From: Burkholderiales bacterium PBB3
Lineage (GTDB): Bacteria; Pseudomonadota; Gammaproteobacteria; Burkholderiales; Burkholderiaceae_C
Direction: 5' to 3'
Assembly: GCA_002256115.1 (NCBI GenBank)
Contig: NKIK01000004.1
Span: 1 to 64,000 of the forward strand
DNA length: 64,000 bases
Shown here: in pieces, positions 43,794 through 57,007 of the stretch
Layout: the number at the start of each line of letters is the position of its first letter
Numbering within the stretch: position 1 is the stretch's first letter
Notes under the pieces: generated by a model
Seen by the model: only the letters and a program-made list of their open reading frames with translations
Told to the model about the DNA's origin: nothing
The model's database searches: none
Made by a program: the position numbers and the translations under genes

Positions 43794-44510
43794 CTAAACG
43801 CCAAGCAGCTTAGGCAAGGCAGGGTCAAGTGCCACCTGCGCGGACGGACCGGACAGCTCTACCAGCCCTTTTTGCAGGACGATCGCCTGGTCGCTTTGGG
43901 CCAGAACCCGGCGGTAATCGCGGTCCACGATTAACGTTGCAATGCCGCTATTGCGAATGTCGGCAATCACGTTCCAAATTTCATTCACGATCAGCGGAGC
44001 TAGACCCTCGGTGGCCTCGTCCAGAATGATGAGTTCGGGATGGGTCATGAGCGCGCGGCCAATCGACAACATCTGCTGCTCACCTCCGGAAAGCTGATTA
44101 CCCATGTTGGTGAGACGCTCTGCCAGCCGCGGGAAGGTTTTCAGGACCCGGTCATACGTCCAGTCGTTGCGTCCGTCGCGCCCACTGCGCGCCGACATCA
44201 GCAGATTCTCACGCACCGTCAGGTTGGGGAAAACGCCCCGACCTTCGGGCACATACGCCACGCCCAAGCGCGCCACTTGGTGCGGTTTGTACTTGGACGC
44301 GTCTTCGCCAAACAGAGCAATGCTCCCCTCGCGCTGCGTCACATGGCCCAGCAAGGTGCGTATCAGCGTGCTTTTACCCATGCCGTTGCGCCCGAGCAGG
44401 CCCATGGTCTGGCCGCGTGCAATTTTGATATCGATACCGTGCAGCACATGGCTCGATGCATACCAGGCGTGAACGCCTCGGGCGTCGACCAAAAAGTCAG
44501 TGCTTGTCAT
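43794..44510 (-). CDS. livF: Branched-chain-amino-acid-type ABC transporter ATPase, LivF-like
   Basis: One of two ATPases of the transporter at the end of the aromatic cluster. The 238-residue protein has a Walker A GRNGMGKST at residues 40-48, a signature LSGGEQQMLSIGRAL, a Walker B LIILDEATEGLAP and a LIVDRDYR segment where others have VEQN. The YVPEGRGVFPNLTVRENL motif is typical of LivF. It follows livG by 1 bp. Its position after benzoate genes suggests an aromatic acid as substrate rather than leucine; transporters of this kind are known to import benzoate-like compounds. Confidence 0.92.
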   Translation of the reverse strand: MTSTDFLVDARGVHAWYASSHVLHGIDIKIARGQTMGLLGRNGMGKSTLIRTLLGHVTQREGSIALFGEDASKYKPHQVARLGVAYVPEGRGVFPNLTVRENLLMSARSGRDGRNDWTYDRVLKTFPRLAERLTNMGNQLSGGEQQMLSIGRALMTHPELIILDEATEGLAPLIVNEIWNVIADIRNSGIATLIVDRDYRRVLAQSDQAIVLQKGLVELSGPSAQVALDPALPKLLGV

Positions 44511-44511
44511 G

Positions 44512-45267
44512 TCAGTGTCCCTCTCCGAGGTAAGCAGTGCGCACTTCCGGGCTGTTGCGAATGAATTCGGCGTCGCCCGAGGCGATCTTGACGCCGTTAA
44601 CCATCACCGTGATCACGTCGGCAACACGAAACACCGCATCCATGTCGTGTTCCACCAGCAAAATGGCGTGGTCAGCGCGCAGCGCATCGAGCAGTTTGAG
44701 CATGCGCTCGGTTTCCTCGGCGCCCATGCCGGCCAGTGGCTCGTCGAGCAGTAGCACCTGGGGCTTGGTGGCCAGGCACATGGCAATCTCCAGCTGGCGT
44801 TTTTGGCCATGCGACAACATACCGGCCTGGCGATCGAGTAAGTGATCCAGTCCTGCGCGACTGGCCGCATCACGTGCGGCAACTGTGCTGAAGCGGCACT
44901 GGTTCGCAGATTGCCACCACTGCCATGGCTTCTGTTCCCCCGATTGCGCTGCCAGTCGACAGTTCTCGAACACTGTGAACGTATGGTAGATAGTATTGCG
45001 TTGGTAGCTGCGACCCAGGCCCGCACGCGCACGGCGTGCTTGCGCCCATTGCGTCACATCCTGCCCCATCAGTTCCACCGCCCCATTGGAGGGCGGAAAC
45101 TCCCCCGACAACATGTTGATCAGCGTCGACTTGCCTGCGCCGTTGGTACCTATAACCGCATGCACGGTGCCGCGTGCCAATTCAATTGAGACATCGTTGA
45201 CCGCCACCAGACCACCCCACCGGCGCGTGATGTTGACACCGCGCAGCAATATTTCCGTTTGTTTCAT
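44512..45267 (-). CDS. livG: Branched-chain-amino-acid-type ABC transporter ATPase, LivG-like
   Basis: The partner ATPase of 251 residues. It has a Walker A GTNGAGKST near residue 40, a signature LSHGQKRQLEIAM, a Walker B VLLLDEPLAGMGAEE and the H-loop ILLVEHDMDAVF. The LivG-type insertion after Walker A is present (GRSYQRNTIYHTFTVFENCRLAAQS). The start lies 3 bp after the livM stop, so translation is coupled. The two ATPases would form a heterodimer under the LivH/LivM membrane pair. Confidence 0.92.
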   Translation of the reverse strand: MKQTEILLRGVNITRRWGGLVAVNDVSIELARGTVHAVIGTNGAGKSTLINMLSGEFPPSNGAVELMGQDVTQWAQARRARAGLGRSYQRNTIYHTFTVFENCRLAAQSGEQKPWQWWQSANQCRFSTVAARDAASRAGLDHLLDRQAGMLSHGQKRQLEIAMCLATKPQVLLLDEPLAGMGAEETERMLKLLDALRADHAILLVEHDMDAVFRVADVITVMVNGVKIASGDAEFIRNSPEVRTAYLGEGH

Positions 45268-45270
45268 GGC

Positions 45271-46284
45271 TTATCCCTTTTTGGCGGCAGCGCCACCCAA
45301 TCCTGAATCACCCGAAAGCCCTCCAACCAGCCGGGCACGCAATTGCTTCGGCAGATCGACCAGACCGTGCGGCAAAAGTGCCACGGCGGCAATGATGGTC
45401 ATTCCCAAGCCCAGGTGCCAATGCTTGGCAAAGTTGCCAAACACCGCTTCGGACTTGAAAAACTCTTGCAGCAGGGCAAAGGCAAAGGCGCCGATGAGCG
45501 CTCCACGCAAGTGACCCAGACCACCCAAAATAATCATCACCAGCACAGCGCCTGACAGGTGCCAGCTCATCATCTCGGGGTTCACGAAGCCGTCTTTCAC
45601 GGCGAACAAAAACCCCGCCAGTCCGGCAATGGAGCCCGAAAGCGTGAATGCTGCAAGCTTGTAGGGGTAGGTCGAAAAGCCGGTGGCTCGCATACGCTGC
45701 TCGTTCACGCGGATGCCTGCCAAAGCCCGGCCAAAGCGTGAACGCAGCAGCACGGCCAAAAAGACAAACACCAGCACCAGGCAGGCCAGCGTAAAGAAAT
45801 ACATGGCCACCGGTGAGTCCAGCCGAATCAAGCTGCCGAGCGCAGGCTTCATGTTCAGGTAAATCCCGTCTGAGCCACCTCCCAAGGGCGTGTCGTGCAC
45901 CACAAAGTAGGCCATTTGGGCGAATGCCAGTGTCACCATGATGAAGTACACCCCTTTGGTGCGCAGTGACAAAGCGCCCACCACCAGTGCATACAGACCT
46001 GCCGCCAGCACCGCGACAGGTAGCAGCCACAAGAGTGATGCGGGTTCAGATTCAGGCGACAACAACACGGCTATGTAAGCGCCAATTCCGAAAAACGCTG
46101 CCTGGCCAAAGCACACCAGCCCGGTGCTCCCAACCAACAGTTCCAGGCTGAGCGCGAAAATGGCATAGATCATGATCTTGCTCACCAGATCCATGCCAAA
46201 GCTTCCAGTGAACATTGGAAAGGCTGCGAGTGCGGCAAAGAAGACCGCTACAAAAAAGAACTTGGATGTCTCGTTGTGATTCAT
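45271..46284 (-). CDS. livM: Branched-chain-amino-acid-type ABC transporter permease, LivM-like
   Basis: A 337-residue inner-membrane permease with about nine hydrophobic segments. Family motifs include IYAIFALSLELLVGSTGLVCFGQAAFFGIGAY and SFGRALAGIRVNEQRMRATGFSTYPYKLAAFTLSGSIAGLAG. The C-terminus MIILGGLGHLRGALIGAFAFALLQE matches LivM. The ATG at 46284 is used because it lies just after the livH stop; the frame is open 27 bp further. The cluster order H, M, G, F after a binding protein is standard for this transporter class. Confidence 0.92.
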   Translation of the reverse strand: MNHNETSKFFFVAVFFAALAAFPMFTGSFGMDLVSKIMIYAIFALSLELLVGSTGLVCFGQAAFFGIGAYIAVLLSPESEPASLLWLLPVAVLAAGLYALVVGALSLRTKGVYFIMVTLAFAQMAYFVVHDTPLGGGSDGIYLNMKPALGSLIRLDSPVAMYFFTLACLVLVFVFLAVLLRSRFGRALAGIRVNEQRMRATGFSTYPYKLAAFTLSGSIAGLAGFLFAVKDGFVNPEMMSWHLSGAVLVMIILGGLGHLRGALIGAFAFALLQEFFKSEAVFGNFAKHWHLGLGMTIIAAVALLPHGLVDLPKQLRARLVGGLSGDSGLGGAAAKKG

Positions 46285-46288
46285 TTCT

Positions 46289-47170
46289 TTAGCCCGCCTT
46301 AAAGAGACCATCGGGTTTCCACAGCAGGATGCCCGCCATCAGCAGATACACCAATACGCCCGAAGCCTGCGGCAGAAAAACCTTGCCAAAGGTGTCCACC
46401 ACGCCAATCATCAGAGCTGCCACGAGGGCGCCCTTGATTGAGCCAATACCGCCAATCACGACCACCACGAAGCAGATGATCAACACTTGACTGCCCATGC
46501 CCGGGTAGACGGACGACACGGGCGCTGCCACCATGCCTGCCAAAGCCGCAATGGCCACTCCGGCAGCAAACACAACGCGGTACAAAAACTTGATGTCAAT
46601 GCCTAGCGACTGCACCATCTCGCGGTTGCTGGCACCAGCGCGAATCATCATGCCCAGCCGCGTGCGGGTGAACACAAAGAACATGCCGATGGCCAGTGCC
46701 AGACAGACTGCCGACACAAACAAGCGGTACACCGGGTACGTCATCATCTCGCCTAGCTGCAACGAGCCTGACAAAATCTCGGGTACCTTCACACCGTAGA
46801 CATCGTCACCCACCAGCAGACTGCGCATTTCCTCGAAGACCAAAATCAGGCCGTAGGTCATTAGCACCTGTTGCAAGTGTTCGCGGTCGTAGAGGTAGCT
46901 GTAAAAGGCCCACTCCAGCACATAGCCCAGCAGCACGGCCAGAACCAGGCCAACCACCAGCACTGCAAAGAAGCCTCCGCCGAAGGTAGCGCTTACGATG
47001 GGCGACAAAGCGTAGGCCATGTAAGCGCCGATCATGTAGAAGCTGCCGTGGGCGAGGTTGATCACGCCCATGATCCCGAAAATCAGTGTCAAACCCGAAG
47101 CGACCAGAAACAGCAACAAGCCGTACTGCACCGCATTCAGGCACTGAATGAGAAATGTTGTTAAGTCCAT
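46289..47170 (-). CDS. livH: Branched-chain-amino-acid-type ABC transporter permease, LivH-like
   Basis: A 293-residue inner-membrane permease with eight hydrophobic segments. It carries the family motif LIFGIMGVINLAHGSFYMIGAYMAY, a cytoplasmic loop with RTRLGMMIRAGASNREMVQSLGI and the end MGSQVLIICFVVVVIGGIGSIKGAL. It lies 39 bp after the binding-protein gene. Together with LivM it forms the membrane channel of the importer. Confidence 0.93.
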   Translation of the reverse strand: MDLTTFLIQCLNAVQYGLLLFLVASGLTLIFGIMGVINLAHGSFYMIGAYMAYALSPIVSATFGGGFFAVLVVGLVLAVLLGYVLEWAFYSYLYDREHLQQVLMTYGLILVFEEMRSLLVGDDVYGVKVPEILSGSLQLGEMMTYPVYRLFVSAVCLALAIGMFFVFTRTRLGMMIRAGASNREMVQSLGIDIKFLYRVVFAAGVAIAALAGMVAAPVSSVYPGMGSQVLIICFVVVVIGGIGSIKGALVAALMIGVVDTFGKVFLPQASGVLVYLLMAGILLWKPDGLFKAG

Positions 47171-47209: not shown

Positions 47210-48382
47210 TTACATGTTGCAGCCGCGTGCCGGATCTTCCAGCGCCTTGCTGGCAATACCCACCACTTTGTTCTCCTTGTCGGAGACCTGGCGCAAGTAC
47301 ATGTTCTGAATGGGGTTGTGCGCCTTCGAGATGGTGAACTTGCCACGTGGACTGTCGATGGTGGTCTTTCTCAGGGCGGCGGCAAAGCCCGCTGTGTCTT
47401 TTGCGTCACCCTTGACGGCGGCCAAGCCTACACCCAGCATCTGTGCGGCGTCGTAACCCTGGACTGCATACACATCCGGCTGCAGCTTGAATGTTTTTGC
47501 ATAGGCCAACCGAAAGGCATTGTCACGCGGGGTGTTCAAGCCATCGGCGTAGTGCAACGCGGTCAAAACACCGTCGGCAGATGCACCCTGGGCTTCGAGC
47601 GTGCCATCGGTCAGGAAACCTGTACCAAAGAGCGGAATACTCTTCTTCAGGCCAGCTCCGTCGTAGTCCTTTACAAACTTCACAGCGCCACCGCCGGCAA
47701 AGAAGGAGAACACCGCATCTGGTTTGGCCGAGGCAATCTCAGTCAACAGCGCCTGGAACTCAACGTTCGGAAACGGCAGGTTCAGCTCTTTGGTTACCTT
47801 GCCACCTGCCTTCTCGAAACCTTCCTTGAAGCCCTTGGCCATTTCATCGCCAGCAGCATACTTCCAGGTGATGGTCGCCGCGGTTTTGTGGCCCTTGGCG
47901 GCCATAGCCTGCCCAATAGCGAAGCCGGGCTGCCAATTGCTGAAGCTGCTACGGAAAATGTTCACCGCACACATCGAGCCGGTGACCGCGTCAGCACCAC
48001 CATTGGGATTGATCATCAACGTGCCCGAAGTCTTGGCCACACGTGCCATGGCCATTGCCACGCCAGAGTGCACGCTGCCAACCAGCACATCGACGTTGTC
48101 TCGCTTGATGAGTTTGTTGACGTTGTCAATGGCTTTGGACGGGTCGGACTCGTCGTCGACCTTGAAAAACTCGACCTCGCGGCCACCGAGCTTGCCGCCC
48201 TGCTCCGTGAGGTACAACCTGAAGCCGTTTTCAATGGCGGTGCCCAATGCGGCGAAAGTCCCGGTGGCGGGTAGCATCAAGCCAACCTTGAGTTTGCCTG
48301 GTGCCTGGGCCATGGCTACTGGCATGGCCAGCGTGACGGCTGCGGCAATGACGGCGCGGCGGGAAATGTGAGAAATTTTCAT
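47210..48382 (-). CDS. Branched-chain-amino-acid-type ABC transporter substrate-binding protein
   Basis: A 390-residue periplasmic binding protein of the type I (Leu/Ile/Val) fold. The signal MKISHISRRAVIAAAVTLAM-PVAMA ends near residue 25. The mature chain begins KLKVGLMLPATGTFAALGTAIENGF; later come KVDDESDPSKAIDNVNKLI, VLVGSVHSGVAMAMARVA, INPNGGADAVTG and YAVQGYDAAQMLGVGL. The start at 48380-48382 follows AGGAG. The signal peptide and upstream region are nearly identical to those of the M20 hydrolase gene next to it. Gene order suggests it binds benzoate or a benzoyl conjugate. Confidence 0.92.
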   Translation of the reverse strand: MKISHISRRAVIAAAVTLAMPVAMAQAPGKLKVGLMLPATGTFAALGTAIENGFRLYLTEQGGKLGGREVEFFKVDDESDPSKAIDNVNKLIKRDNVDVLVGSVHSGVAMAMARVAKTSGTLMINPNGGADAVTGSMCAVNIFRSSFSNWQPGFAIGQAMAAKGHKTAATITWKYAAGDEMAKGFKEGFEKAGGKVTKELNLPFPNVEFQALLTEIASAKPDAVFSFFAGGGAVKFVKDYDGAGLKKSIPLFGTGFLTDGTLEAQGASADGVLTALHYADGLNTPRDNAFRLAYAKTFKLQPDVYAVQGYDAAQMLGVGLAAVKGDAKDTAGFAAALRKTTIDSPRGKFTISKAHNPIQNMYLRQVSDKENKVVGIASKALEDPARGCNM

Positions 48383-48404
48383 GGTGTTTGTCTCCTGGGG
48401 TGTG
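48305..48404 (-). repeat. Signal-peptide cassette, copy in the binding-protein gene
   Basis: These 100 bp, covering the ribosome-binding site, the start and about 26 codons of signal peptide, match 49819-49918 at about 89 of 100 positions by hand count. The similarity stops at the end of the signal peptide. Confidence 0.9.
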
Positions 48405-48564
48405 CCGGTCATCGCCGGCTGTTAAAAATGAGATTCCGTTATTTGGACAGTTCTTGCCCCAACGCAAAAAAACAGGGTCGGTGCGGCCTACAGCCTGCTA
48501 ACGCAAACGTAACGCCAGTGGGAGTCGAAGGGAGCTGACCGTTGGGAGCATTGATATTTCACAA

Positions 48565-49896
48565 TCAATTCCCCAAAGCTGTGAGCACTGCGAGGCTCAT
48601 GGCTTTGATCGATGTCTTAATCGTGGGCTCTGGTACTGGAGCAAAAAAAGGCGAGTGGTTGCCCGGCAAAGGCTTGGCGCCCGGGAGGCGTGACGCTACA
48701 ACATCTTTCGGGTCATATACACCAACGAGGAAGAACATCACCTGGACTCCCGCGCCAGCGTACTCGGAGAAGTCTTCGCTGGGAGTGATGGGTGGCATGC
48801 GTTTGACATTGACTCCAAGAGCAGATATCAGAGTCGCCTCGGTCCGCTCAACAAGCGCCGCGTTGTTGACCACCGCGTTACCACCCGCAATAATTTTTAC
48901 CTCGGGTTCGGGCGCGCCAGCCGCTACCGCTGCGCCTTTCGCTGTGCGCTGGATACCTTCGTGCAACTTGCTGCGCACCCCTTGGTCGTAGCTGCGGATG
49001 GTTCCGCGCAGCGCCACATTGTCCGGAATGATGTTGCCACTGGTGCCACCCTGAATGGCCCCGATGCTGAAGACACCGAACTGGAACGGGTCCTTTTCGC
49101 GGCTGATCACGCCCTGCACGTCGACAACGAAGCGCGACGCAATCAGTATCGGGTCGATGGACTTGTCTGGTGCCGATCCATGCGCACCACGGCCATGGAA
49201 AACCGCCTCGAAGCTGTCAGAGTTGGAGGTGACAGGGCCGACGTTGAAGCCGATCTCGCCGTAGGCCATCGGCCAGGTGTGCAGTGCAAAGGCGAAGTCG
49301 GGCTTGCCGAAGCGCTTGAAAAGGCCATCATCAAGCATTGCTTTCGCGCCACCCAACACCTCCTCGGCGGGCTGGGCGACAAACATCAGCGTGCCTTTCC
49401 ATTGGGACTTCATGGCCACCAATGTCCTGGCAGCACCAACCCAGCTCGCCATGTGGATATCGTGGCCGCAGCTGTGGGCCACGAAAGTTTCCTTGCCCAA
49501 ATAGCCCGTCTTGACCTTGCTGGCGTAAGGCAGGCCGGTCTTTTCTTCCATTGGCAGGGCGTCAAGCTCGGTGCGTACCATGATGGTGAGCCCGGAACCG
49601 TTGCGCAGTAACCCGACCACACCGGTCTTGCCGAGGCCCTCGGTCACTTCAAAACCGAGATCGCGCAGCGCCTTTGCCAGCCTCTTCGAGGTATTGATCT
49701 CCTCAAAGGCTAACTCGGGATGTGCGTGGAGGTCTTTGTACAGGGCCTCCACCTCGGCGTAGTTCCGATCAACATGGGCGTTGACAGCCTTACCAAACCG
49801 CTCCGCAATATTGCCCGACTGGGCCATGGCTACTGGAATAACCAGCGTGACGGCTGCGGCAACGACGGCGCGGCGGAAAATATGAGAAATGTTCAT
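48565..49896 (-). CDS. Exported M20 family amidohydrolase (hippurate/aromatic amide hydrolase candidate)
   Basis: A 443-residue metal-dependent amidohydrolase of the M20 family, which includes hippurate hydrolase and IAA-amino acid hydrolases. The dinuclear site is visible in VAHSCGHDIHMASW and QPAEEVLGG, and the dimerisation domain in FHGRGAHGSAP with its conserved His. The C-terminal PSEDFSEYAGAGVQVMFFLVG carries the last metal ligand region. Unlike most relatives it starts with a signal peptide (MNISHIFRRAVVAAAVTLVI then PVAMAQ). Located between catC and the transporter genes, it would release an aromatic acid such as benzoate from an amide outside the cytoplasm. The substrate is inferred. 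Confidence 0.9.
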   Translation of the reverse strand: MNISHIFRRAVVAAAVTLVIPVAMAQSGNIAERFGKAVNAHVDRNYAEVEALYKDLHAHPELAFEEINTSKRLAKALRDLGFEVTEGLGKTGVVGLLRNGSGLTIMVRTELDALPMEEKTGLPYASKVKTGYLGKETFVAHSCGHDIHMASWVGAARTLVAMKSQWKGTLMFVAQPAEEVLGGAKAMLDDGLFKRFGKPDFAFALHTWPMAYGEIGFNVGPVTSNSDSFEAVFHGRGAHGSAPDKSIDPILIASRFVVDVQGVISREKDPFQFGVFSIGAIQGGTSGNIIPDNVALRGTIRSYDQGVRSKLHEGIQRTAKGAAVAAGAPEPEVKIIAGGNAVVNNAALVERTEATLISALGVNVKRMPPITPSEDFSEYAGAGVQVMFFLVGVYDPKDVVASRLPGAKPLPGNHSPFFAPVPEPTIKTSIKAMSLAVLTALGN

Positions 49897-49918
49897 GGGG
49901 CTTGTCTCCAGGGATGTG
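49819..49918 (-). repeat. Signal-peptide cassette, copy in the M20 hydrolase gene
   Basis: The partner of 48305-48404. It includes TTGTCTCC, complementary to the GGAGACAA ribosome-binding region shared by both genes. The shared block gives the hydrolase the same export signal as the binding protein. Confidence 0.9.
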
Positions 49919-49946: not shown

Positions 49947-50225
49947 TTACGCGATTGCGGATGGATGCGTTGCCAGCGGCGTGACCGTTATTTGCATGAA
50001 CGGGAAAAGAGGTAATTTCGCTAACGTGTCATGCAATTCATCATTGCCCGATACATCAAATACGCTGAAGTTGGCGTACTCACCCACCACACGCCAAAGG
50101 TGGCGCCACTTACCGGCGTGTTGTAGTGCTTGCGCATAGACCTTTTCTTCCGCTTTGATGCGTGCAGCCTCCTCTGAAGGAAGGTTTGCGGGAATGTTGA
50201 CCACCATGTGGACGAGATAGAGCAT
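49947..50225 (-). CDS. catC: Muconolactone delta-isomerase
   Basis: Moves the double bond of (+)-muconolactone to give 3-oxoadipate enol-lactone in the catechol branch of the beta-ketoadipate pathway. The 92-residue chain is typical: MLYLVHMVVNIPANLPSEEAARIKAEEK, then HLWRVVGEYANFSVFDVSGNDELHDTLAKLPLFPFM, ending ITVTPLATHPS. These small subunits form a decamer. It lies 12 bp after pcaD, and the M20 hydrolase gene follows 50 bp later. Confidence 0.96.
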   Translation of the reverse strand: MLYLVHMVVNIPANLPSEEAARIKAEEKVYAQALQHAGKWRHLWRVVGEYANFSVFDVSGNDELHDTLAKLPLFPFMQITVTPLATHPSAIA

Positions 50226-50237
50226 TGCGTTTCCTTT

Positions 50238-51059
50238 TCAAAGAAAGTTAAGAACCGTGCGGGTGAAAGCCTGAGGTGCTTCCAGGTTCGAAAGATGTGA
50301 CGTCGGCAGCACGACAGTGCGCGCATCAGTAATATGTGCTTGCATGGAATGGGCATCCGCCACGGTGGTTACCGGGTCGAACTCGCCCGCAATCAGCAGG
50401 GCCGGGGTCTTGATCGACGCTAGGTCGGCCCGCAGATCCGAGTGGGCCAAAGCCTCACAGCAGGCAGCGTAGCCCTCCGGGTTGATGCCGGCCAATACCG
50501 TCTGCACCGCTTGAACCGTGCCGGGTTGCGCACGCACAAAGTCTGGGGTGAACCACCTGCCTGGCGCCGAATCGGCGAGGACCTGCATACCCAGACTTAC
50601 CCCCTTGCGCAGCGTATCAGCGCGATCTTTCCAGCCCTGCACCGTACCGATACGTGCAGCACTATTGCAAACTACCAGCGACTTCAAACGTTTGCCTGCG
50701 TGTGCGCCCAGCCAAAGGCCGGTGTGACCGCCCATGGACAGGCCGCAGAAGCTCGCAATGGGGATCTGTAGTGCATCCAAAATAGCCAGCACGTCCTGCC
50801 CCAATCCGTCGACCGAGTAGGGCCCTGGCGTGACCACACTGCCACCATGGCCACGGGTGTCGTAGCGGATCAGGCGGTAACTTTTTGACAGTTCCTCTAC
50901 CTGTGGCGCCCACATCTCCAGGGTCGTTCCGAGCGAGTTGCTGAGAACAAGCGGCGCAGCGCCAGCTTCCCCGTCTATCGCCACACGGAAAGGACCACGG
51001 GCAGTGTTCAAGACCATGACGGTCGAGATGGATGGTGCTTCTGCACTGTGCGTTGTCAT
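50238..51059 (-). CDS. pcaD: 3-oxoadipate enol-lactonase
   Basis: Hydrolyses 3-oxoadipate enol-lactone to 3-oxoadipate, after catC. The 273-residue alpha/beta hydrolase has LVLSNSLGTTLEMWAPQV near the oxyanion hole, YDTRGHGGSVVTPGPYSVDGLGQDVLAILD, the nucleophile in FCGLSMGGHTGLWLG, and a C-terminal Asp (AGEFDPVTT) and His (SHLSNLEAP). It is a stand-alone form, not fused to the decarboxylase PcaC, as expected for the catechol branch. It is 1 bp from benD. Confidence 0.94.
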   Translation of the reverse strand: MTTHSAEAPSISTVMVLNTARGPFRVAIDGEAGAAPLVLSNSLGTTLEMWAPQVEELSKSYRLIRYDTRGHGGSVVTPGPYSVDGLGQDVLAILDALQIPIASFCGLSMGGHTGLWLGAHAGKRLKSLVVCNSAARIGTVQGWKDRADTLRKGVSLGMQVLADSAPGRWFTPDFVRAQPGTVQAVQTVLAGINPEGYAACCEALAHSDLRADLASIKTPALLIAGEFDPVTTVADAHSMQAHITDARTVVLPTSHLSNLEAPQAFTRTVLNFL

Positions 51060-51060
51060 A

Positions 51061-51837
51061 TCAACCTTGATCGCCGCCGCCCACAGGCAGCACCGTACCG
51101 GTGATGTAAGAAGCCCGGTCCGAAGCTAAAAAGAGGATAGCCTCGGCCTGCTCATCCAGCGTGCCGTAGCGCTTCATCAAGGTGCTGGACACGGTTTGGT
51201 CCACGATTTCCTGGTACCAGGCTTTGTCCTTGCGACCGAGCCGCGCTGTATTGCGGGGCACTCGGCGCGGCGGCGCTTCAGTACCACCAGGTGATACCGC
51301 ATTGACCCGGATGCCGCGCTCACCGTTTTCAAAGGCCAGGCAGGCCGTCAATGCGTTTACACCGCCCTTGGCTGCGCCATAGGGCACACGATTGACGCTG
51401 CGCGTGGCTATCGAAGACACATTGACGATAGAGCCCTTTTTCTTCTTGAGCATGAAGGGCAGCACTGCCCGGCAGCACCACAGCGTAGGGAATAGTGAGC
51501 GGCGTACTTCAGCCTCGATTTCCGCGGGGCCGTAGTGCTCAAAGGGTTTGGTCCAAATTGTGCCGCCGACGTTGTTCACCAGAATGTCGATGCAGCCGAA
51601 TGCCTGGTAGGTTTGCGTTGCTGCCTTCTCAGCACCTTCAAATTGTTCTAGGTCAGCTTCAATCGACATTACCTCTGCGGTCGCGGACAAACGCTGGCGC
51701 AAGTCATGGACCAGCGGGGAACGGTCCACCAGCGCCAGTCGCGCGCCTTGCGCTGCTGCCAATTCCGCCACCCGCTCGCCGATGCCTTGTGCGGCCCCGG
51801 TGATCAGCATGACCTGGCCTTTGAATTGATCACTCAT
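51061..51837 (-). CDS. benD: Benzoate cis-diol dehydrogenase
   Basis: Oxidises and decarboxylates 1,6-dihydroxycyclohexa-2,4-diene-1-carboxylate to catechol with NAD+. The 258-residue short-chain dehydrogenase has the cofactor motif ITGAAQGIGERVA, DILVNNVGGTIWTKPFEHY, the catalytic Ser in VNVSSIATRSV and Tyr/Lys in YGAAKGGVNALT. The AVSPGGTEAPPRRVPRN loop is typical of BenD/XylL. Its start overlaps the benC stop by 4 bp. Confidence 0.95.
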   Translation of the reverse strand: MSDQFKGQVMLITGAAQGIGERVAELAAAQGARLALVDRSPLVHDLRQRLSATAEVMSIEADLEQFEGAEKAATQTYQAFGCIDILVNNVGGTIWTKPFEHYGPAEIEAEVRRSLFPTLWCCRAVLPFMLKKKKGSIVNVSSIATRSVNRVPYGAAKGGVNALTACLAFENGERGIRVNAVSPGGTEAPPRRVPRNTARLGRKDKAWYQEIVDQTVSSTLMKRYGTLDEQAEAILFLASDRASYITGTVLPVGGGDQG

Positions 51838-52880
51838 AGTGCAGTCTCCAATGGAGCGTCACCCACCACAGCAGTGGTTGAGGACGCAAATTTTTCGTAG
51901 TAGAAGTGCGCAGGCGCAATGGCCGCAGACGTAAAGTGTTTTTGCACCGCATCCACCATGGGTGGAGGGCCACACAGGTACACATCCACATTGCCGTCGT
52001 GCAAAACCTCGGGTGGCATGTGCTGGGTGACATAGCCCTGGCGTGGGTGCGTCGTTTGCGGGTCTGCCACGCAGGTGTTGAAGGTGAACCCAGGCATGCG
52101 GGAGGCGCAGTCTTCCAGGCGGTCCACCAACACCAAATCCTGGTCGCGCGTCACGCCATAGATCAGGTGAATCGGGTGGGCAAGCGCCTGCGCTGCCAAT
52201 ACTTCCAGCATCGATAGAAACGGTGCCAAACCGGTACCGCCCGCCAGTAGCAACAGCGGCCTGCTGACCGGGCGCAAGTAGAAACTGCCCAAAGGCCCGG
52301 TGATGTCAAGCGACTGCCCGGTTTGTGCACTGCCCAGCCAGGTACTCATCAGGCCGCGGGGTACCTGCTTGATCAGAAAGCGCATAGCGGCACTGCCCGG
52401 TGCAGAACTGAACGAATACGAACGGTGTTGCGCCGCCCCGGGCACCCCAATATTGACGTACTGCCCTGGCAAGAACGCGGGCGCATCCGGCCCGCTGTCC
52501 AGTACCAGCTCAAACGCGGCATCGTCAAAGCGCACTACATCCCGTACGGTGGCGGCAAACTGGGCAGTTCCGGTCTTGCAGGCTGTCGAAGGCACCGGCA
52601 CCGCAATCACGCAGTCCGAGCGCGGCACCATTTGGCAGGTCAGCACCAAGCCGCCCTCGGCTTCTTCTTGCGTGAGTGCATCTTCGATGTAGTCCTCACC
52701 CATGTCATAGCTACCGCTTTCGGCGCGGCATTTGCAGGTGCCGCACACGCCGTCGGAGCAGTCCATGGGCAGATTGATGCGCTGTCTGAAAGCACTGTCT
52801 AGTACTTTTTCAGTGGCACCGCAGTCGATGAAACGGGTCACGCCGTCTTCGAAGTTCAGTGCAATGCGGTAGCTGGTCAT
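51834..52880 (-). CDS. benC: Benzoate 1,2-dioxygenase reductase
   Basis: Transfers electrons from NADH through FAD and a 2Fe-2S centre to BenAB. The 348-residue protein has an N-terminal plant-type ferredoxin domain with Cys 41, 46 and 49 (CSDGVCGTCKC) and a fourth Cys in VLTCQM. Next come the FAD domain (PGQYVNIGVPGAAQHRSYSFSS) and the NAD domain (LLLAGGTGLAPFLSML, VYLCGPPPMVDAV). Domain order is that of the BenC/XylZ class. It lies 18 bp after benB. Confidence 0.96.
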   Translation of the reverse strand: MTSYRIALNFEDGVTRFIDCGATEKVLDSAFRQRINLPMDCSDGVCGTCKCRAESGSYDMGEDYIEDALTQEEAEGGLVLTCQMVPRSDCVIAVPVPSTACKTGTAQFAATVRDVVRFDDAAFELVLDSGPDAPAFLPGQYVNIGVPGAAQHRSYSFSSAPGSAAMRFLIKQVPRGLMSTWLGSAQTGQSLDITGPLGSFYLRPVSRPLLLLAGGTGLAPFLSMLEVLAAQALAHPIHLIYGVTRDQDLVLVDRLEDCASRMPGFTFNTCVADPQTTHPRQGYVTQHMPPEVLHDGNVDVYLCGPPPMVDAVQKHFTSAAIAPAHFYYEKFASSTTAVVGDAPLETAL

Positions 52881-52898
52881 CCGGGGCTCTCCTTGGCT

Positions 52899-53390
52899 TT
52901 ACAGGTGGTAGATGTCAACGACCTGGCGGATGTAGTCGTCCTTCAGGATGATCTTTTTGCGCATGATGCGGTAGCTGCCATCGATGTGCTCCCGCAGCGT
53001 CAGAAAGGTGGTGCCGAAGAAATGGCTGGTTTCCTTGTAGCGGTGGCTCAGCGTGTGAAAGTTGTAGCGCACCTCCACCGTGTCGCCCTGCTGCTGCAGC
53101 ACTTCCACATTGGTCACCATATGGTTGGTGCGTGGCTCTGGCATGGATGCACTGGAGCGCTCGGTCTGAATGCGAAAGACGCGGTCTTCCAGGCCATTGC
53201 GGTTGGGGTAGTAGATCAGCGAGATCTGACTTTGCGGATCTTCGGTGAGCTGGTCGTCATCGTCCCAGGCTGGCATCCAGTACTCTGCCTCGGGGGCATA
53301 CAGGTCTAACCAGGCCTCCCAGTTGCGGTCATCGAGGTAGCGGGCCTCACGGTAGATGAAGGCGCAGATATCAGCATAACGGGCGCTCAT
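52899..53390 (-). CDS. benB: Benzoate 1,2-dioxygenase beta subunit
   Basis: The small subunit of the ring-hydroxylating dioxygenase. The 163-residue chain shows the cone-shaped NTF2-like pattern of this family: [59 protein letters not shown] and a C-terminal [24 protein letters not shown]. It supports the alpha subunit in an alpha3beta3 complex. The start overlaps the benA stop by 4 bp. Confidence 0.96.
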
Positions 53391-54763
53391 GGCTGGGCTC
53401 CTTCACGCTCTGCTTGCACGGCTTTGCGCATGGTTTTTGCCCAGTAGTCGTGCTGGCACACAAACAGCCCTTCGTCTTCGCTGCGCCCGCCGCTGATCAG
53501 CGGGGTCATGCCCATGGCTTTGGCGTTGTCGTCGGGGCCCTGCTTCCACAGCGGCGCGCCACGGCTCAGGTCATTCCACGGGGCGGCCTTGCCGGCATAG
53601 CCCACTTGACAGGAGCGGAACTCTTCCAGGTCGTCGGCGGTTCCCATGCCGGACACATTGAAGAAATCCTCGTACTGGCGGATGCGGGTCGCGCGGTCTT
53701 CAGCGCTTTCGCCTTTGGGTGCAAAGCAGTAGATGGTGATCTCTGTTTTGTCCACGCTGATAGGGCGGGTCACCCGGATCTGGGTGGAGAACTGGTCCAT
53801 CAAATACACATTGGGGTAGATACACAGATTGCGTGTCTGTCCGACGATCAGGTCGGCCTTGGCCTCGCCCAGGCGGGCCTTGATTTCCTCGCGCTGCTTG
53901 AAGACCGGGCGAACCTCCGGGTTCATGGTTTGGGTCCACAAGAGGATGTGGCCGTTCTCGAAGCCATACACGCCGCCCACGCTCTTGCTCCAGCCATTGG
54001 CGTCTACCGCCTTGGTACCACCGTCTTTGCGCCGGCCCATGGTGGCCGCGTAGTTCCAATGCACCGAGCTCACGTGGTAGCCATCGCTGCCGTTTTCCAT
54101 TTGCAGCTTCCAGTTGCCGTCATAGGTGTAGCTGGAGTTGCCGCGCAGCACTTCCAGCCCATTGGGCGCCTGGTCCACGATCTGGTCGATGACAACTTTG
54201 GTATCACCCAGGTAGTCCTGCAGGGCTTGCACATCCGGGTTCAGGCTGCCAAAGAGAAAGCCTTTGTAGCTCTCAAAGCGTGCGACTTTTTTGAGGTCGT
54301 GCGAGCCTTCCTTATTGAACTGGATGGGGTACTCGGTGGTCTTCTCGTCTTTGACCTTGAGCAGCTTGCCGGTGTTACCAAAGGTCCAGCCATGGAAGGG
54401 GCAGGTGAAGCTACCCTTGTTGCCGTGCTTTTTGCGACACAGCATGGCACCCCGGTGGGCGCAGGCGTTGATTACGGCGTTCAAGTTGCCGTCCTTGCCC
54501 CGCGTGATCACGATGGGCTGGCGCCCGATGGTGGTGGTGAAGTAGTCGTTGATCTCCGGGATCTGGCTCTCGTGCGCCAGATACACCCAGTTGCCTTCGA
54601 AGATGTGTTTCATCTCCAGCTCAAACAGCGCAGGGTCGGTAAAGATGTCGCGCCGGCACTGGAAGACGCCATTGGCATGGTCGTCCACCAGCGCGGAGTC
54701 CAACAGCTTTTCGACGTTGCCGAAGGCAGGCGTGGTAGGGGTCGTGGTGGTCGTCGTGGTCAT
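53387..54763 (-). CDS. benA: Benzoate 1,2-dioxygenase alpha subunit
   Basis: The catalytic subunit that adds both atoms of O2 to benzoate. The 458-residue protein has a Rieske centre formed by Cys 101 and His 103 (ACAHRG) and Cys 121 and His 124 (CPFHGW). The mononuclear iron ligands lie in [12 protein letters not shown], with a later Asp. The [11 protein letters not shown] and [13 protein letters not shown] segments are typical of BenA/XylX. The N-terminus is a run of Thr ([12 protein letters not shown]), an unusual low-complexity lead. It is the first gene of benABCD and lies 29 bp after catA. Confidence 0.97.
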
Positions 54764-54792
54764 TGCCAGGTCCTCGTGGAGTAGTTTTCGCT

Positions 54793-55728
54793 TCAGGCGG
54801 CAAGACGGGGGCGGTCGACCAATTGGTTGTCCACGCCATCGACGAGTGCACTGAGCGTGATGTCGAACACGATTTCAGCGTATGGGCCCTTCAAGCCTTG
54901 CGCCTCAATGCTGGCTGCATCGGTGCGCTCCACCAGAGCTGGCACCAGGCCTTCGCGGGTAGCGTAGGCAAAGTCGTCGTTCACCAGCGGGTCGCCATCG
55001 ATATTGATTTGCGTCGTCAGCTTGCGGTGACCATCGGCGGACACAAAAAAGTGAATGTGCGCGGGGCGGTTGCCGTGACGGCCCAGCTGGTTGAGCAGTG
55101 CTTGCGTGGGGCCGTCGGGCGGGCAACCGTAGCCTTGGGGCACGATGCTCTGGAATTTGTAGCGGCCTTGGGCATCGGTGATGATGGTGCGGCGCATATT
55201 GAAGGCCTTTTGCTCGCCTGTGGGGTCGAAATGCGAGTAAAAGCCTTTGGTGTTGGCATGCCAGACTTCGACCTTGGTGTTGGGCAGGGGCTGGCCATCG
55301 GCACCGCGCACGGTGCCGTGCATGATCAGCGTGTGGCCAGTCGTGTCAGTGCCGTCATCCAGGCGGGCAAACCCTTGCGCCTCTGGGGCACCAGCCACAT
55401 ACAGCGGGCCTTCAATGGTGCGCGGAGTGCCATTGACGATGCCCAATGCAGCATCTTCGGCATCCATGCGCATGTCAAAGTAACGGTCCAGGCCCAAGCC
55501 CGGGGACAGCAAGCCGGCCTCGCTGCGCGCGCCGAGCTGGTTCACATAGGCCACACCGGCCCAGTATTCATCGGAGGTGATGTTCAGATCGTCAATCGCT
55601 TTGAACAAATCCGACAGCAGGCGGTGAACAATCGCCTTGGTGCGGGCATTACCGCCCGTTTGCGACAGGCCGCTGGCCAGACGCAAGAAATCCTGGACTT
55701 CTGTGGTGTTGTAAATTAATGTGCTCAT
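54793..55728 (-). CDS. catA: Catechol 1,2-dioxygenase
   Basis: Cleaves catechol between the hydroxyls to cis,cis-muconate with non-haem Fe(III). The 311-residue protein has an N-terminal helical dimerisation part ([25 protein letters not shown]) and the catalytic beta-sandwich with [44 protein letters not shown] and [14 protein letters not shown]. The iron ligands are two Tyr and the two His of AHIH. The ATG at 55728 is preceded by AGGAG; an earlier one at 55815 lies in the gap and is not used. Confidence 0.96.
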
Positions 55729-55786
55729 GGTTGTCTCCTGGGTCTTTGGGGTGAGTAAAAAGGGGATCAGTAAAACGAGGTGGAAA

Positions 55787-57007
55787 TCAAACGGGCGATG
55801 CCGCCGTGCTGACAATAGGGTTCAGGCCGCTGCTCACACTGACGCGCGGGCGGTCGCGGCGGAAATGTTTGACGCGGTCTTCATCCAGCGCGATACCCAG
55901 ACCAGGGCCACTGGGCAGCTCCAGATGAAAGTCCCGATAAACCAGAGGCTGGGTCAAAATTTCTTCAGTGAGCAGCAATGGGCCAAATAATTCGGTACCC
56001 CAGCGCAATTCGCGGAAGGTAGAAAACACATGGGCCGAGGCAATGGAGCCCACTGCGCCCTCGAGCATGGTTCCGCCATACAAGGCGATTTGTGCAGCAT
56101 CGGCAATGGCTGCTACGTGCTGGGCGGCTTGCAGGCCGCCGGACTGTTCGGTTTTGATGGCGAACACATCCGCAGAGGACGATTTGGCAAGCTCAAACGC
56201 AGTGACTGGCCCCATCAAGGATTCGTCGGCCATGATGGCGATGGGGTATCGGCCCCTGAGGCGTGCCATTGCTTCGGGGTAGGCTACAGGCTGTTCGGCT
56301 AACTCGCATCCAGCATCAGCCAGTGCAGGCAAGCCGTAGCCGGCTTCCAGCTCGGACCATGCCATGTTGACGTCGACCCGTACCGAGGCTTTGTCGCCCA
56401 GTGCTTTCTTGATTTCAGCCACGTGGGCCACGTCCTCGCGCACTGGCTTGCGGCCGATCTTGAGTTTGAAAATCTGGTGGCGGCGAATGGCCAGCATCTG
56501 CTGGGCCTCGTCAATGTCTTTGGCGGTATCGCCCGATGCCAGGGTCCAGGCCACGGGCAAGCGGTCGTGCAAGCGCCCGCCGAGCAACTCCGAAACCGGC
56601 AGGCCAACACGGTGACCCAGGGCGTCAAACAGGGCCGTCTCGACGGCGCACTTGGCAAACCTGTTTTCACGGATGGCAGTGCCCAGCAAGGTCATCAGCG
56701 CGGACACCCGGTTGGCGTTGGCACCCAGCATCAGCGGTGCAAAGTAGGTATCGATGGCGAGCTTCATACCTTCGGGTGATTCGCCGCCGTAAGCCAGGCC
56801 ACCAATGGTGGTGCCCTCGCCCACGCCCACGGTGCCATCCGAGCAGTGCACGCGCACCAGCATCAGGGTTTGGCCATTCATCACGGCCATCGACAGTTTG
56901 TGCGGGCGGATGGTGGGAAGGTCCACCAGGAATGTTTCCACGCGCACCACGGTGACGGCATCTACCGCCAAAGTGGTTTGGAGTGGGAGGGAGGATGTGT
57001 GTTGCAT
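55787..57007 (-). CDS. catB: Muconate cycloisomerase
   Basis: Converts cis,cis-muconate to (+)-muconolactone with Mn2+. The 406-residue enolase-superfamily enzyme has the KxK catalytic motif in FKLKIGRKP, the metal ligands in VRVDVNMAW, CELAEQPV and IMADESL, and the second base Lys in FAIKTEQSGG. The N-terminal lid begins with ETFLVDLPTIRPHKLSM. It is the promoter-proximal gene of the long minus-strand cluster and diverges from the LysR regulator gene, with 143 bp between the two starts. Confidence 0.96.
   Translation of the reverse strand: MQHTSSLPLQTTLAVDAVTVVRVETFLVDLPTIRPHKLSMAVMNGQTLMLVRVHCSDGTVGVGEGTTIGGLAYGGESPEGMKLAIDTYFAPLMLGANANRVSALMTLLGTAIRENRFAKCAVETALFDALGHRVGLPVSELLGGRLHDRLPVAWTLASGDTAKDIDEAQQMLAIRRHQIFKLKIGRKPVREDVAHVAEIKKALGDKASVRVDVNMAWSELEAGYGLPALADAGCELAEQPVAYPEAMARLRGRYPIAIMADESLMGPVTAFELAKSSSADVFAIKTEQSGGLQAAQHVAAIADAAQIALYGGTMLEGAVGSIASAHVFSTFRELRWGTELFGPLLLTEEILTQPLVYRDFHLELPSGPGLGIALDEDRVKHFRRDRPRVSVSSGLNPIVSTAASPV

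Follow-up and report, generated by a model that had tools for sequence, protein, structure and literature searches.

Translation starts and signal peptides are usually assumed to descend with their genes. In the window, the whole 64,000-nucleotide stretch of DNA analysed here, an M20 amidohydrolase gene opens with nearly the same bases as the neighboring gene of an ABC importer binding protein, which raises the question of how one start came to stand before two unrelated genes. Both lie among predicted benzoate-degradation genes on the minus strand, in the order catB, catA, benA, benB, benC, benD, pcaD, catC, M20, binding protein, two permeases and two ATPases, with the following features.

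51061..57007, minus strand: benD, benC, benB, benA, catA and catB; family scores above cut-off except for benA, which is slightly below (758.8 against 780.95)
50238..51059, minus strand: pcaD, 3-oxoadipate enol-lactonase; TIGR02427 above cut-off
49950..50225, minus strand: catC, muconolactone isomerase, immediately upstream of M20; TIGR03221 above cut-off
49897..49918, minus strand: ribosome-site region (GGAGACA) of the likely captured copy
49819..49896, minus strand: M20 codons 1-26, predicted export signal MNISHIFRRAVVAAAVTLVIPVAMAQ, the likely captured copy; foreign to other M20 fronts
48565..49896, minus strand: M20 amidohydrolase gene, 443 aa; PF01546, PF07687 and TIGR01891 above cut-off
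48383..48404, minus strand: ribosome-site region of the likely donor, within the repeat match
48305..48382, minus strand: binding-protein codons 1-26, MKISHISRRAVIAAAVTLAMPVAMAQ, the likely donor or its present form
47210..48382, minus strand: ABC importer binding protein, 390 aa from this start; PF13458, closest solved relative 4evq (E 3.3e-117)
43794..47170, minus strand: two permeases and two ATPases of the importer; PF02653 twice, PF00005 twice, with no NCBIfam equivalog cut-off reached among the matches listed

The repeat is genuine. In a repeat search over 12 kb, 49819-49918 and 48305-48404 agreed at 89% over 100 nt, the top-length repeat, as the hand count of about 89 in 100 bases in the sequence-only reading had it. 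By direct count, 4 of the 11 differences precede the ATG and 7 fall in codons 1-26, changing 5 of 26 residues. The left edge lies 22 bases 5′ of both ATGs, in register, and the match spans the ribosome site GGAGACA (18 of these 22 bases are identical); the right edge is codon 26, one residue past the likely cleavage site AMA-Q. Outside the repeat, agreement is at chance level (16/60 bases upstream, 18/90 downstream), and the alignment of the two proteins is confined to residues 1-27, so that the similarity does stop where the mature proteins begin, as had been stated.

When the 100 bases were searched against the whole genome, they returned themselves, the M20 copy (E 8.7e-32) and then a next place at E 0.12; the likeness thus far exceeds that to other signals. 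It is extremely improbable that the two signal peptides are alike by chance or that the repeat is an assembly artefact: although signals are of low complexity and unrelated ones score up to 59 at the protein level, the present match holds at the DNA level with the ribosome site included, and a duplicated read is unlikely because the copies differ at 11 sites and sit within a contig of 201,654 bases. We rejected a mobile signal cassette, since the genome contains no further good match to the 100 bases. Start sharing as a genome-wide habit was rejected as well: among 375 adjacent start pairs in 461,654 bases of this one genome, window included, the M20/binding-protein pair has 56/63 identical bases and the runner-up 33/63, sharing being absent from the other 374. 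Promoter and terminator patterns near the repeat junction were no more frequent than in shuffles.

The direction of transfer can be read from the relatives of each gene. The window M20 signal scores at least 80 against 54 of 120 binding-protein fronts, its neighbor's included, and at most 37 against all 119 other M20 fronts, indicating that the binding protein is the donor and M20 the recipient; we consider the binding-protein gene very likely the source on this comparison. In addition, the binding-protein leader looks by eye like its counterparts in the two closest congeners (G007 and G029), so this start has apparently not moved. The reverse direction, with the M20 signal copied onto the binding protein, gains something from the fact that in G007 (L013) and G029 (L012) the binding protein carries a quite different signal (MFTFNTYR..) before mature parts 94% identical to that of the window, but the absence of the signal type from the 119 other M20s makes it highly improbable. 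No donor for the deviating signal was found in these two genomes, where the best other match had an E of 0.008 over 24 bases.

The donor sequence may not be preserved exactly. By eye, the M20 copy agrees with G007 at the position five bases before the ATG and at the third bases of codons 19 and 20, while at others of the differing positions the binding-protein base agrees with G007; because G007-like bases are split over both copies, both have probably aged. The M20 copy scores 104 against the signals of P0122-P0124 and 99 against the resident binding-protein signal. This edge could be chance or could reflect an older donor allele, and the donor may have been another allele.

The sequence-only reading held that recombination had copied the signal onto a cytoplasmic hydrolase and so moved it to the periplasm. 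The copying, with the binding protein as donor and M20 as recipient, stands; the cytoplasmic origin does not. By a crude rule, which gives false positives with benD, the two permeases and, when translated from an upstream start that is probably wrong, catA, a signal-like front is present in 113 of the 120 best M20 homologues (the window's own counted). Five of the seven that fail are short at the front (P0062, P0086, P0090, P0099 and P0115), and P0088 and P0109 look signal-like by eye. The rule is also passed by 95 of 97 genomic M20 loci, a set in which several of L121-L136 duplicate genomes of L041-L120; the two failing loci, L048 and L123, are identical in sequence and signal-like by eye. 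For P0062 (locus L042, Azohydromonas australica), the DNA encodes an in-frame signal ahead of the deposited M20 start.

These signals are others than that of the window, and the closest homologue, P0002, already has a different one: its mature part is identical to that of the window M20 at 383 of 417 residues, its signal at 7 of 26. Since close homologues mostly have different predicted signals, the window M20 was likely not moved to the periplasm but had its signal swapped, and, as far as sequence tells, the family was already exported before the swap. That a cytoplasmic M20 hydrolase acquired its first export signal here is very unlikely; the signal is new to this gene and signal-less M20 proteins exist (for example L043:11584-12786), but signal-like fronts prevail among the homologues and loci, the closest one included. 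The L043 protein, from Rubrivivax sp. A210, is a second M20-like ORF without a signal near an exported M20.

The window M20 belongs by score to the TIGR01891 amidohydrolases (257.6 bits, cut-off 153.75), whose relatives are often named hippurate hydrolase. It is like them in family score, in predicted signal and in the motifs CGHD, EE, H and NH, which align with the solved member 6slf and which we take to be the metal site; it differs in a start that comes from another gene lineage. Its front fits a Sec-type pattern by the crude rule, with a positive start, a hydrophobic core and an AxA-like site. A Tat signal has a polar residue, RR and then hydrophobic residues. By a crude pattern of this kind the window M20 fails (F before RR) and the binding protein fits, as do 56/119 other binding proteins and 2/119 other M20s; a change of M20 from Sec to Tat through the new signal was not supported by this test.

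Taken together, the first 100 bases of the M20 gene are likely a copy of the binding-protein start, laid by short local recombination over a pre-existing, different export signal; we put the probability of this reading at roughly 70%. An M20 gene would have arrived horizontally in the cluster, and a template switch or conversion tract would then have replaced its start. The near-uniform ribosome site GGAGAC would serve as the left anchor and a short match as the right exit, namely the common ..AQ end of the two signals in the window and RVL codons in a second case (L045, below). The product would stay exported, as predicted, the ribosome site and signal of its gene now being those of the binding protein. 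Gene conversion or template switching between repeats yields a short, one-way tract with sharp edges, and the M20 tract is of this kind. It differs in that donor and recipient are unrelated genes, that their common part is the ribosome site and start region, and that the left edge is at the ribosome site. Of 29 binding-protein leaders from congeners, 26 contain GGAGAC and 19 GGAGACA, counts which are favored by the loose ribosome-site rule used to choose the congener starts. In 462 kb, 9 of 20 GGAGACA sites precede an ORF of at least 90 codons, compared with 1 in the reversed control.

The same product would result without any conversion tract if a second binding-protein copy had arisen before M20 and a deletion had joined codons 1-26 of that copy to the mature part of M20. 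We regard this duplication and deletion as unlikely: just 16/60 bases upstream of the M20 copy match the binding-protein leader, the repeat search showed nothing else left of a second binding-protein gene between catC and M20, and at least two steps are required.

Horizontal arrival of the M20 gene, on which the recombination reading draws, was considered from its distribution. At E 1e-100, one of 148 other genomes among the relatives contained the gene, as a 46% match in another family; at E 1e-120, 16 of 398 other genomes drawn from the same family did; and at E 1e-190, none of 299 other genomes drawn from the order. This patchiness suggests horizontal transfer, and the window gene was likely acquired in this way. 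Carriage by plasmids was tried and rejected, the 18 plasmid records matched all being below 60% identity. Among 80 loci with flanks of up to 8 kb, several of them shorter, no M20 stood next to such a binding protein at 45% identity or more, and no other genome with the same M20/binding-protein start swap was seen.

Close binding-protein relatives (92-93% identity) are named Rhodoferax, which makes the host a probable Rhodoferax. The two closest congeners have catB, catA, benABCD, the binding protein, permeases, ATPases, pcaD and catC in this cluster, and M20 is absent from it in both. Because benD adjoins the binding protein there, the two were likely neighbors before pcaD, catC and M20 came between them. 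The cluster has been rearranged at 49950-51059: pcaD and catC precede the importer in the window and follow it in the congeners. Identity to the congener copies is 59-60% for pcaD, 73-75% for catC and 84-93% for the importer genes; benB (73-74%) and benC (72%) are as low as catC, and a foreign origin within this block is thus hinted at for pcaD alone.

A second case was found in L045, a Betaproteobacteria MAG, where the M20 start (L045:4340-4430) resembles that of a catechol 2,3-dioxygenase gene (L045:5845-5930), the next gene downstream. The match is in register, with the two ribosome sites aligned and likewise the two ATGs, and has 43/63 identical bases in codons 1-21 and 11/36 in codons 22-33. 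In a register-based survey of 2221 adjacent start pairs from 81 sources, in which 1106 starts had a ribosome-site motif, the window pair reached 56/63, the L045 pair 43/63 and the remaining 2219 at most 35/63; both outlying pairs involve this M20 gene. Of 600,264 cross-locus pairs left after a filter for unlike bodies, 44 reached 43/63; 13 example pairs with at least 41/63 appear to be homologues that the filter missed.

By BLAST score the L045 case is not outstanding. In a comparison of M20 fronts with the remainder of their own loci (n = 98, window included), the window scored 132 bits and L045 37.4, and 588 control pieces of M20 bodies gave a maximum of 47.3, with 5 at 37.4 or more. A self-BLAST survey of 1.33 Mb returned 70 repeats, of which the window pair was the sole start-anchored one, and missed L045. 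At the protein level, the L045 M20/dioxygenase score of 59 exceeds the null maximum of 54 and is equalled by two ordinary signal-versus-signal pairs.

The dioxygenase front aligns with 1mpy from residue 5 and is thus native, which makes the L045 M20 the recipient. Its hydrophobic core and cleavage region are M20's own; P0079, 90% identical to it, aligns from its residue 15 onward. At E 1e-150 the L045 M20 was not found in 148 other genomes around its host. As M20 is rare around the L045 and window hosts alike, both may have acquired the gene recently. The 399 genomes around the L045 host contained its own M20 and three others of about 60% identity, whose fronts look like ordinary signals by eye and give no further case.

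A third case, P0087, is known from the protein alone. In residues 1-48 of this M20, a start like that of an MFS transporter is followed by one like that of a dioxygenase. Its first residues, VLQLDIHKIGDEAKFSRFRG, align in register with those of the MFS transporter whose gene directly precedes M20 in L042 and L045 (12/19 residues, score 75), and the next, GVPRTQNAAIRVPKVGPTLKRYVGVL, resemble the dioxygenase start from residue 5 (14/29, score 67). The real set comprised 137 M20 fronts and 19 neighbor fronts, and the maximum of 15,618 shuffled comparisons was 54. Signal-versus-signal scores reached 59 in this test, but the MFS and dioxygenase fronts are not signal peptides. The MFS front is seen in both L042 and L045 and is native to the donor family. 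In the simplest history, the dioxygenase start would have been captured once, before L045 and P0087 diverged, and the MFS start later in the P0087 line. Such a layered front could also come from successive deletions, in favor of duplication and deletion.

With the dioxygenase and the MFS transporter as further apparent donors in the clade, what is captured appears to be a neighbor's translation start, not an export signal as such. A ribosome site and first codons that match those of a neighbor in register, before unrelated bodies, are present in the window and in L045, and in P0087 as protein alone; the donor start is native to the donor family for the binding protein, the dioxygenase and the MFS transporter. 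We propose start capture from an operon neighbor as a class. The best reading of the three cases is that a patchy, likely acquired M20 gene repeatedly captures its neighbors' starts, probably via short recombination at near-uniform ribosome sites. Such capture could perhaps be a recurrent way of fitting horizontally acquired operon genes, a generalization that we hold tentatively: recombination at these sites would swap in the neighbor's ribosome site and first 15-30 codons, and an exported enzyme could rebuild its signal out of these, even where the donor is a cytoplasmic dioxygenase.

The unusual aspect here is that a single gene has likely had its start replaced more than once, each time by that of a neighbor. 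No description of natural start exchange between operon neighbors was found in the titles and abstracts listed by searches of open-licence literature. With three apparent, unrelated donors in one clade, the M20 front likely offers a concrete natural case of exchanged export signals and translation starts, and suggests the ribosome site common to the genes as a recombination handle.

The cluster also bears on function. The importer has the parts of branched-chain-amino-acid-type ABC importers with a 4evq-like binding protein (binding protein, two permeases and two ATPases) beside benzoate genes. 4evq and 4evr were reportedly solved with benzoate derivatives. A periplasmic M20 enzyme that releases benzoate from N-benzoyl conjugates such as hippurate, feeding the importer and the ben/cat pathway, is predicted and fits this arrangement; ben clusters may thus include a step that frees benzoate in the periplasm. 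Several M20 homologues carry the source name hippurate hydrolase, by name only, and ben genes occur in the flanks of 8 of 80 M20 loci, namely L041-L045, L047 and L048, which are seven of the eight best matches, and L072.
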